This document shows positions 16,698 to 19,516 of a stretch of 24,042 nt of DNA, in pieces. The position numbers and the translations under genes are program-made. The notes below the pieces were generated by a model. It ran no database searches. It had not been told where the DNA came from and was given only the letters and a program-made list of their open reading frames with translations. Position 1 is the stretch's first letter, and every line of letters begins with the position of its first letter. This DNA comes from Chitinophagaceae bacterium (lineage in GTDB: Bacteria > Bacteroidota > Bacteroidia > Chitinophagales > Chitinophagaceae), in NCBI GenBank assembly GCA_003455235.1, contig DMRT01000143.1, positions 1 through 24,042 of the forward strand, given 5' to 3'.

Positions 16698-16728
16698 AAT
16701 GCTCCCCAATGGGGAGCATTTTTATTTC
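16698..16728 (+). terminator. Rho-independent terminator after the BI-1/YccA gene, facing the arsC stop
   Basis: A perfect 10-bp stem (AATGCTCCCC at 16698-16707, GGGGAGCATT at 16711-16720) with a 3-nt AAT loop is followed by TTTATTT. On the minus strand the stem is followed by ACTCTTTTTAA, so it may also end the ars operon, whose arsC stop is at 16722. Confidence 0.9.
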
Positions 16729-17114
16729 AGTCCGGTAAGAAGTTGTTTTACTTTCCCGGCAATGAGGTCTCTAACTTCATTGAATTGCTCCGGCTCCATA
16801 TGCTTCGGGTCAGGAATCTGCCAGTCGATGAACTGTTTGGCCGGCATCCATGGGCAGGCATCGCCGCATCCCATGGTAACCACAGCATCAAAAGGAGCAA
16901 ACTCCTTTACATCATCAAGGCTCTTGCTTTCATGCTTTGCCAGGTCATAGCCCAGCTCCTTCATAGCGGCAATGGCTTTGGGATTTACCAGGCCACTGGG
17001 TTTGCTGCCGGCGCTGTAAGCCTCTACTTCGTTACCCCCCAGCATTTTCGCAAACGCCTGGCTCATCTGCGAGCGGTTGCTGTTTTCAATGCATACAAAC
17101 AAGATCTTCTTCAT
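16722..17114 (-). CDS. arsC: Arsenate reductase, thioredoxin-coupled LMW-phosphatase type
   Basis: 130 aa. The phosphatase-like P-loop is C8-I-E-N-S-N-R14-S. The two further redox cysteines are in TMGCGDACPW (Cys83 and Cys87), and the general acid is Asp102 in WQIPDP. This three-cysteine arrangement marks the B. subtilis / S. aureus ArsC family, which reduces arsenate to arsenite and is regenerated by thioredoxin. It overlaps arsN2 by 4 bp (ATGA), is the last gene of the ars operon and ends at the shared hairpin with the YccA gene. Confidence 0.95.
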   Translation of the reverse strand: MKKILFVCIENSNRSQMSQAFAKMLGGNEVEAYSAGSKPSGLVNPKAIAAMKELGYDLAKHESKSLDDVKEFAPFDAVVTMGCGDACPWMPAKQFIDWQIPDPKHMEPEQFNEVRDLIAGKVKQLLTGLK

Positions 17115-17560
17115 AGCTGCTTTTTCATTACCACGGCGGTGGAAGGACAGAGGCTTACAAACTGGTCCGTCTGTTGTATTGGTTCCGGGGCCGTTACCCG
17201 GTCAATCACTTCGTATCCCTGTCTTGCGAAAAAATCTTTTGCGGTATGGGTGATGAGGTACAGGGCATCAATCCCCTTTTCCCTCGCAATCACCTCTATC
17301 CGTTCGTTCAGTTTTTTCCCATAACCCTTCCCTTTCAGATCTGCCAGTACACTTATGCTGCGCAGCAGGGTGCATCCGGGAAAGATGTCGAGCCCGGCCG
17401 TGCCGATCATTTTTTCTCCTTCCCAAAAGGAATAAAGCTCGGTGTTTTCGCTGATATCAGTAACGGGCAGGCCCTGTGCTTCCAGCAGGGTCATTACCCG
17501 GGATCGCTCTGCGTTGCCGTCAGCGATTGTTAAAACAGGCTGTGTTGCTGATGAGGTCAT
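17111..17560 (-). CDS. arsN2: ArsN2-type GNAT acetyltransferase of the ars operon
   Basis: 149 aa, single GNAT domain: 'WEGEKMIGTAGLDIFPGCTLLRSISV', then the acetyl-CoA loop K76-G-K-G-Y-G81 followed by KKLNERIEVIAREKGIDALYLIT and 'DFFARQGYEVIDR'. These match the ArsN2 group of GNATs found in arsenic operons. Related ArsN1 acetylates arsinothricin and phosphinothricin, but the ArsN2 substrate is not settled, as far as I know. It overlaps arsC by 4 bp, so the two are translationally coupled. Confidence 0.85.
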   Translation of the reverse strand: MTSSATQPVLTIADGNAERSRVMTLLEAQGLPVTDISENTELYSFWEGEKMIGTAGLDIFPGCTLLRSISVLADLKGKGYGKKLNERIEVIAREKGIDALYLITHTAKDFFARQGYEVIDRVTAPEPIQQTDQFVSLCPSTAVVMKKQL

Positions 17561-17591: not shown

Positions 17592-18050
17592 TTACCAGAT
17601 ATATCTCCGCTGCGTTCTCATTTTGACCATCCGTTGAATATTCCACAGGTCGGCTACTGTAAGCAACCGTCGGCTGGCCGGGTTCGCTTCCTGCTCCGGT
17701 GCAAAAGTAGTTGCAGACAATTCCACCTGCTGCCGCAGATCAATGGTTACTTTGTCTTTTTTAATGACACAATACCCCTGGCCGGAAAAGTATTCCTTTG
17801 CCTTGCTTACGAGGCAGGGCCAGTAATCACAGATGCCTTCTTCGGCATAGCGTTCCAGCGAGGCATTGATGATGGCGTTGAGTTCTTCCCGCTGTTCTTT
17901 TTTAATGCCGGGAAGCTGATGCAGCTGCCGGCAGTCTTCAAATATTTCAAGGCCTTCAATACCGATCACCCGTTCGCCATTCAGCCACAGGTAGCTGAAT
18001 GTAGTTTCTTCTGTTTTTGATGGGTGCGATGCCAGTAATTCTGTTTTCAT
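17592..18050 (-). CDS. Degenerate ArsN2-like protein with basic DLWNIQR tail
   Basis: 152 aa. Residues about 18-105 align by eye to the neighbouring ArsN2: 'LNGERVIGIEGLEIFEDCRQL' with 'WEGEKMIGTAGLDIFPGCTLL', and 'AKEYFSGQGYCVIKKD' with 'AKDFFARQGYEVIDRV'. At the place of the acetyl-CoA loop (KGKGYGKK in ArsN2) this protein has KKEQREEL at 50-58, with no glycines, so it is unlikely to bind acetyl-CoA normally. Residues 127-152 form an added basic tail, 'RRLLTVADLWNIQRMVKMR' plus TQRRYIW. There are four cysteines (40, 74, 79, 94). The frame is intact, so it looks maintained. Its function is unknown; a paralogue turned binding or regulatory partner is inferred. A fast-evolving pseudo-enzyme or early decay are alternatives. 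Confidence 0.75.
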   Translation of the reverse strand: MKTELLASHPSKTEETTFSYLWLNGERVIGIEGLEIFEDCRQLHQLPGIKKEQREELNAIINASLERYAEEGICDYWPCLVSKAKEYFSGQGYCVIKKDKVTIDLRQQVELSATTFAPEQEANPASRRLLTVADLWNIQRMVKMRTQRRYIW

Positions 18051-18084: not shown

Positions 18085-18111
18085 GGCCGGCATTGTTACT
18101 CTTTGCCGGCC
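18085..18111. other. Intercistronic hairpin in the ars operon
   Basis: Arms GGCCGGCA (18085-18092) and TGCCGGCC (18104-18111) pair perfectly over 8 bp around an 11-nt loop. On the minus strand no U tract follows, so it should not terminate the operon. It may protect or process the upstream arsR-arsM-peptide message. On the plus strand CTGG and seven T's (18116-18122) follow, which would stop antisense transcription. Confidence 0.5.
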
Positions 18112-18120
18112 CTGGTTTTT

Positions 18121-18201
18121 TTAGCAGCAACCCCAATCGGTGAGGCCGCAGCATCCGCTGTTTGTTTCGCAACAACCCGGATCTTTCTGATTTGTGTTCA
18201 T
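18121..18201 (-). CDS. 26-residue Cys-Cys peptide of the arsenic operon
   Basis: An ATG at 18201 opens a 26-codon frame ending in TAA. It lies 30 bp after the arsM stop and before the degenerate ArsN2-like gene, all in one direction. The peptide is polar and begins MNTNQKDPGCC. It contains three CC pairs (PGCC, SGCC, WGCC; Cys10-11, 17-18, 25-26), spaced seven and eight residues apart, and ends in CC. The same PGSGCC-style ending is seen at the C-terminus of ArsM, and ArsR also ends in CC. No known family is recognised. Soft-metal or arsenite binding is inferred from vicinal thiols and position. A chance ORF is the main alternative, made less likely by the regular CC spacing and the location. 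Confidence 0.6.
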   Translation of the reverse strand: MNTNQKDPGCCETNSGCCGLTDWGCC

Positions 18202-19149: not shown

Positions 19150-19485
19150 TCAGCAACAGGCTTTTTCGTTCTGCACTTTCAGCTTATTGAACAGTGAACT
19201 GAATTCGCCCATGAATTTGTCGAAGGCCTTCCAGTTGATGCAGTAGCAGCTCCGCGGTCCGTCGATATTGCCATCGATCAGCCCGGCGTTCTTCAGTTCT
19301 TTCAAATGCTGCGATACGGTGGACTGGGAAAGCGGCAGCACATCTACAATTTCGCCACAAATACACTCATTGCGCTGGGCCAGCAGCTTGAGGATGGCAA
19401 TGCGGGCCGGGTGCGCCAGGGCCTTGGCAAAAGCCGAGAGGTCCTGCTCTTTCTGCGTAAATTCTTCTTTTTTATGAATGGCCAT
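19150..19485 (-). CDS. arsR: ArsR/SmtB-family arsenic-responsive repressor
   Basis: 111 aa from [10 protein letters not shown] winged-helix domain has '[18 protein letters not shown]', the inducer-binding pair in NECICGEIV (Cys-x-Cys at the alpha3 helix) and recognition helix '[18 protein letters not shown]', then the wing '[13 protein letters not shown]'. Two further cysteines in SCYC and a terminal CC give extra thiols. As(III) binding to these cysteines would release DNA. ATG 19485 is chosen over 19506 because the longer start lies within the promoter-operator. First gene of the ars operon. Confidence 0.93.
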
Positions 19486-19498
19486 TGTTTTTATTTTA

Positions 19499-19516
19499 TA
19501 TCGCAAATATACGATA
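19499..19516. promoter_or_regulatory. Putative ArsR operator
   Basis: The 18-bp TATCGCAAATATACGATA is an imperfect palindrome (TATCG...CGATA arms) centred on the -7 box of the ars promoter. Position and AT-rich half-sites fit ArsR-type autoregulation by promoter occlusion. Confidence 0.6.

Follow-up and report, generated by a model that had tools for sequence, protein, structure and literature searches.

Does the 26-residue reading frame that follows arsM in a Chitinophagaceae arsenic operon encode a product of its own and, if so, what would that product do? Few resistance systems have been studied as thoroughly as the ars operons, yet a very short gene within one of them matched no Pfam or NCBIfam family here. 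The frame lies in a stretch of 24,042 nucleotides (the window, by which we mean the whole stretch of DNA that was analysed), in an operon of the order arsR–arsM–peptide–GNAT–arsN2–arsC, all read in one direction (Table 1).

Table 1. Positions of the operon genes and associated elements in the window.
Feature	Position	Strand	Remarks
arsC-type protein, low-molecular-weight phosphatase family	16722..17114	-	Pfam LMWPc
arsN2 N-acetyltransferase	17111..17560	-	NF040501, 137 bits, above cut-off
GNAT-like protein	17592..18050	-	First gene past the hairpin; no Pfam match
Terminator-like hairpin	18085..18111	-	8-bp perfect stem, 11-nt loop; begins 9 nt past the peptide stop
CC-peptide gene, 26 aa	18121..18201	-	ATG at 18201, TAA ending at 18121; CC-X5-CC-X6-CC-stop, three Cys-Cys pairs
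arsM, arsenite methyltransferase, 285 aa	18232..19089	-	NCBIfam NF008823, E 1.4e-105, above cut-off
arsR, 111 aa from ATG	19150..19485	-	Pfam and NCBIfam scans; Cys 41, 43, 80, 82, 110, 111
16-nt near-palindrome ATCGTATATTTGCGAT, likely ArsR operator	19500..19515	.	3 mismatches to the ArArsR footprint core given in the available text of PMC11868830

The predicted peptide has the sequence MNTNQKDPGCCETNSGCCGLTDWGCC, with CC at positions 10-11, 17-18 and 25-26, and its ATG stands 30 nt past the arsM stop codon (18232). The ArsM encoded next to it carries a CC-X5-CC near the N-terminus and a CC-X5-CC-stop tail (Cys 30, 31, 37, 38, 277, 278, 284 and 285). An original prediction, made from the letters of this stretch, had described the ATG-to-TAA frame, its three CC pairs, its distance from arsM, a co-directional set of ars genes and the same doublets in ArsM and at the end of ArsR (110-111). 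On reading the sequence we could confirm all of these, the shared direction holding for arsR, arsM, GNAT, arsN2 and arsC; the hairpin at 18111-18085 and the recurrence of the peptide outside the arsM context had gone unmentioned.

As for the genes behind the peptide, the GNAT-like protein is only distantly like ArsN2, scoring 25 bits where the cut-off is 125, and the best NCBIfam arsenate reductase match of the arsC-type protein falls below its cut-off. In the 29 loci compared, L033 was the only one in which a best match to the GNAT-like protein was assigned (46%). A search for Acr3 in the window's own genome, which is 68% complete, gave no match.

The frame is more than a chance occurrence, as both shuffling and a comparison with local ORFs indicate. 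When the intergenic region (181 nt) was shuffled 20,000 times by dinucleotides, no ATG ORF with three CC pairs arose. A scan of ATG ORFs 15-60 aa long (7703 distinct ones) turned up 21 with at least three CC pairs, 20 of which belonged to the family described below; the loci scanned had been collected near ars genes, and the scan gives a local background only. Reading through the stop codon of arsM was rejected as a source of the peptide, since relatives have the peptide in another frame (+29 or +31).

Neither Pfam nor NCBIfam, their known metallothionein models included, returned a match for the peptide. This is a weak test for so short a query, and its outcome agrees with the earlier statement that no described family was known to match. 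A tblastn search for copies on plasmids, insensitive with a query of 26 aa, was likewise negative. Matches to granulin in the PDB (E 0.0012-2.6) were ascribed to cysteine composition.

Related peptide genes were found at 37 loci, no two of them identical in nucleotide sequence, and each lies next to an arsR or arsM that runs in the same direction. The loci were gathered through arsM neighbours, profile matches, a CC-pair scan and two genus searches; they are not a random sample and include close relatives. The three features by which we delimit the family, namely a CC-X5-CC core, a C-terminal CC and a place in an ars operon, were all found. Three or four CC pairs are present in 28/37 copies, and in 28/28 of these the first spacing is X5 and the frame ends in CC-stop, while a terminal CC occurs in 34/37 copies overall. 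The four-pair form belongs to genus g25 (6/15 genomes). Of the nine remaining copies, L149, L150, L016 and L057 have two pairs, and L038 and L048 carry single cysteines between two CC pairs, being the only copies with extra single Cys. The other three are decayed: L039 was truncated through a shifted frame, L059 (also truncated) has a TTG start and an early TGA, with CCC present, and L043 is devoid of CC pairs.

The searches behind this set differed in reach. A survey of arsM neighbours took in 80 ArsM loci of named records (some named to a higher rank only), 79 of which could be read past arsM, L090 being cut off; the peptide followed arsM in 14/79, and L043 added one degenerate copy. Position-blind whole-genome searches with a profile found the full length of the model matched (E ≤ 1e-3) in 19 genomes, 19/19 of them in ars loci. 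Eight of the 19 were sources of the profile (G000, G237, G249, G497, G530, G533, G564 and G1086), and the other 11 had supplied none of its sequences. L016 and the four-pair form were added by scanning the retrieved loci. In the window's genus, 7/93 genomes are known carriers: six, one of them with a truncated copy, came from a single search, and the seventh, G070 (L048), was missed there. A scan of the phylum matched 2/395 genomes, both of family f1, and overlooked divergent copies in G070 and G113, so that absence elsewhere holds for close forms only.

Several candidates were set aside. Profile matches to part of the model (e.g., in G197, G162 and G199) are ArsM tails, and matches arising from DUF6428 tails were dropped. 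The matches in G591 and G663 (L175, L176) had no ars match nearby, a two-CC ORF in L034 sits inside a longer frame, and L127 was judged to be chance. Solitalea agri has, between its arsR and its arsM, an ORF of 51 aa with two CC pairs (L107:3826-3981), which was left out of the count.

Comparison of relatives points to constraint on the encoded protein. The original prediction had staked itself on conservation of the frame and of the CC spacing and on a codon bias in the substitutions; the former is apparent in the 28 copies just described, and the substitutions are weighted toward silent changes. Over eight disjoint pairs, which were hand-picked and one of which (L149/L150) has no silent difference, pN/pS was 0.31 (37 silent differences over 117 sites and 47 replacements over 486 sites); four further pairs gave values of 0.16-0.59. 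Cysteine is encoded by both codons in 28 peptides (TGC 102, TGT 55). A K/N-D motif precedes the first CC pair in 24/29 peptides, its D being GAT in 17 and GAC in 7, and any P is encoded by CCC, CCG or CCA. Judged by these comparisons, the CC spacing of the peptide is kept by selection at the protein level. The claim does not extend to G1078 and G1082, because their peptide genes differ by three replacements and one silent change.

The reading that we favour, at a probability of roughly 0.58, is that the peptide is the product of an ArsR-controlled gene and acts as a free thiol micropeptide. Arsenite would release ArsR, and the peptide would then be made in quantity. Its vicinal cysteines would bind As(III) as do those of AfArsR, in which Cys95, Cys96 and, less strictly, Cys102 form a CC-X5-C site (PMC8470949, available text), and the peptide would hold As(III) until the metalloid is extruded, methylated or otherwise handled. 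In effect it would act as a free-standing version of ArsM's CC-X5-CC tail, usable with or without ArsM. We infer metal(loid) binding by clustered thiols from the CC spacing only; the family probably binds arsenite, and a buffer role of the peptide is possible. The sparse distribution in the window's genus and the three decayed loci weigh against this reading.

The proposed control by ArsR is consistent with the repressor and with its putative site. ArArsR of Arsenicibacter rosenii has cysteines at 41, 43, 80, 82, 107 and 108, and senses As(III) via Cys 41, 80 and 82, the terminal pair being dispensable (PMC11868830, available text). The cysteines of this sensing are present in the ArsR of the window and in those of G1078 and G1082, whose cysteines occupy the same six positions as in the window. 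Upstream of arsR, ATCGTATATTTGCGAT was found in 28/31 loci outside genus g25, the exceptions being L143 (one change), L042 (no good match) and L167 (cut by the contig end). This sequence is likely the ArsR operator and would govern the operon as a whole; it marks the operon and not the peptide, because the scan outside g25 took in peptide-bearing loci only. Six g25 genomes have a second ArsR-site-like sequence 35 nt upstream of the peptide, and in g25 genomes devoid of the peptide (G197, G535 and G670) that site lies 36-39 nt upstream of arsM. Peptide and hairpin thus behave in g25 as a cassette set between the ArsR-like site and arsM. A terminal CC was seen on ArsR in 86/89 loci read.

The main rival to a free micropeptide is a translation-gated terminator, because a hairpin (a stem of 7 bp or more, including 4 or more GC, within 70 nt of the stop) follows 32/37 peptides; in 30 cases it is no more than 12 nt away, and the median distance is 6 nt. 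In that case the gene would be a cis-acting leader: a ribosome on the Cys-rich ORF would cover the hairpin lying about 6 nt past the stop, and the speed of translation (depending on Cys-tRNA, on thiol state or on a nascent peptide that has bound As) would decide on read-through into the next ars genes. In the first set of loci, 22/24 peptide hairpins lay at most 12 nt from the stop. The other genes of the same loci had a hairpin at 37/245 ORF ends, amounting to 13 clusters, of which three were equally close; controls were compared per gene cluster, as the earlier control count had duplicates. With the criterion set at 6 bp or more within 60 nt, a stem was found at 27/29 peptide ends, as opposed to 19/64 ends of arsM genes not followed by the peptide and 217/1450 mononucleotide shuffles.

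Other data are in line with such gating. Ribosomes almost completely repress a terminator placed a few bp past a stop codon in E. coli (PMC4824070, available text), and hence the hairpin may be gated by translation of the peptide. In Bacillus CDB3, a hairpin between arsC and arsD reduces the long transcript (available text of PMC4562236). The constant distance of the hairpin suggests that translation in cis could outweigh the product, and the cassette of the six g25 genomes, with its hairpin between the second ArsR-like site and arsM, would suit a leader as well.

Against this, a leader requires in every case a same-strand ars gene past the hairpin, and 8/37 loci have none: six loci of genus g18, where the next gene is convergent, together with G1078 and G1082. 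Translation gating is therefore not the whole story. Three CC pairs are kept in six of those eight loci and two pairs in two. Elsewhere, the first gene behind the peptide varies (GNAT, arsN2, arsC, acr3 or arsM), and the non-Cys residues of the peptide are conserved with varying codons. The short distance from stop to hairpin recurs after arsC in L033, L038 and L044. RNAalifold, applied to the region past the ORF in five g25 loci, kept the hairpin, but the stem does not covary cleanly (a compensated change in 3/14 predicted pairs, with an unfavourable covariation term of +2.2). In the window itself, the T-run 3' of the stem is weak. On balance we consider a purely cis-acting role unlikely. Under the free-micropeptide reading, the hairpin would end the transcript, wholly or in part, so that the peptide would be favoured relative to the genes that follow. 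A mixture of the two seems doubtful, though conceivable: a mobile cassette made of an arsenite-binding micropeptide and a ribosome-gated terminator, whose product would sequester As(III) while its translation sets downstream ars transcription.

A dedicated carrier handing As(III) to ArsM, which the original prediction had offered next to a buffer, is quite improbable. It would fit the 25/37 copies that directly follow arsM, and also the peptide core CCEPGSICC of L064 and L145, almost identical to the ArsM tail CCEPGSGCC. The other copies lie between arsR and arsM (8/37) or have no adjacent arsM (4/37). Against a carrier, the arsM of G047 is about 193 kb away from the peptide. As a general role the carrier fails because three peptide-bearing genomes, G613, G1078 and G1082 (estimated completeness 94%, 100% and 100%), gave no ArsM match at E ≤ 1e-30. 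What stands of the earlier interpretation is a conserved, ars-linked small gene with a selected CC spacing; delivery to ArsM as a general role does not, even if an ArsM-specific interaction could occur in the window's lineage.

In G613 the peptide lies between arsR and arsC. In G1078 and G1082, both of the window's genus, the unit is arsR–peptide–hairpin (L195:4013-4477 and L196:4043-4508), followed by mraZ (identified by Pfam) and mraW, and searches of the two genomes for Acr3 and for the low-molecular-weight ArsC, with ArsB and ArsP outside the search, gave no match. That the peptide is merely left over from a duplication of the ArsM tail and kept by chance only is very improbable: the likeness to that tail, the patchy presence in the window's genus and the three decayed copies would agree with it, but pN/pS is below 1, the spacing is fixed, and the peptide is independent of arsM and retained in genomes with no ArsM match.

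Among known systems, the metallochaperone ArsD (PF06953) is likewise a small ars-operon protein with vicinal Cys pairs, and in R773 ArsD Cys12, Cys13 and Cys18 are needed for chaperone function (PMC4562236, available text). The CC-peptide, in contrast, has 26 aa and no match to PF06953 or any other Pfam family, and ArsD had no match in 21 peptide-bearing genomes; accordingly, it is at most an ArsD analogue. The C-terminal tail of Bacteroidota ArsM shares the CC-X5-CC-stop pattern (47/79 complete tails have the X5 spacing), with core residues nearly identical in some copies. Unlike the tail, the CC-peptide is free, has its own start codon, is out of the arsM frame in several loci and exists where arsM is missing. 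The type-2 As(III) site of AfArsR has the CC-X5-C ligand spacing but is part of a repressor, and no homology is claimed.

Bacterial metallothioneins are small, Cys-rich and presumably devoted to metal(loid) buffering. The CC-peptide resembles them in size and cysteine content and differs in having no family match and in carrying its cysteines as vicinal pairs. Cys-codon leader peptides with attenuators are short Cys-rich ORFs just before a terminator, an arrangement much like that of the CC-peptide and its hairpin, except that 8/37 CC-peptide loci offer no ars gene on the same strand for regulation. DUF6428 (PF20001) probably belongs to arsenic handling and comprises small proteins with a tail such as CCTPNSGCC; it differs from the peptide in being a 157-aa domain protein, and none of the loci checked, with or without the peptide, had a match to it. 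A CC-X5-CC tail like that of ArsM was seen on DUF6428-like proteins in L128, L131, L132, L136, L138, L139, L161 and L162, of which L136 alone was scanned.

A small thiol ligand of metalloids is a known kind of molecule; the family, its size and the arsR-only operon appear to be new. No such peptide was described in the titles or abstract starts that we searched, most subscription journals being outside the search. Thiol chelation of arsenic is known in eukaryotes, and the peptide, if it binds As(III), would be a gene-encoded bacterial counterpart. Binding would also suggest a role for the CC tails of ArsM, ArsR and DUF6428. Should translation gate the terminator instead, the gene would be part of an arsenic- or thiol-linked attenuator. 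If the cassette reading is true, no arsenic-resistance operon would be smaller than its bare form, arsR with a 26-residue peptide.

In a quick ArsM tree, the peptide label changes 10-11 times, at least three of these changes being forced by the starred branches. In L049 (2180-2340), which has no peptide, the arsM tail runs straight into a hairpin resembling that of L057 (4790-5010); the two CC-stop ends, that of arsM and that of the peptide, probably recombined, so that the peptide was lost and the hairpin was left past arsM. In L038, L042 and L064, insertions (repeat-like by eye) widen the gap between arsM and the peptide to 65-108 nt, and the peptide and its start context are intact.
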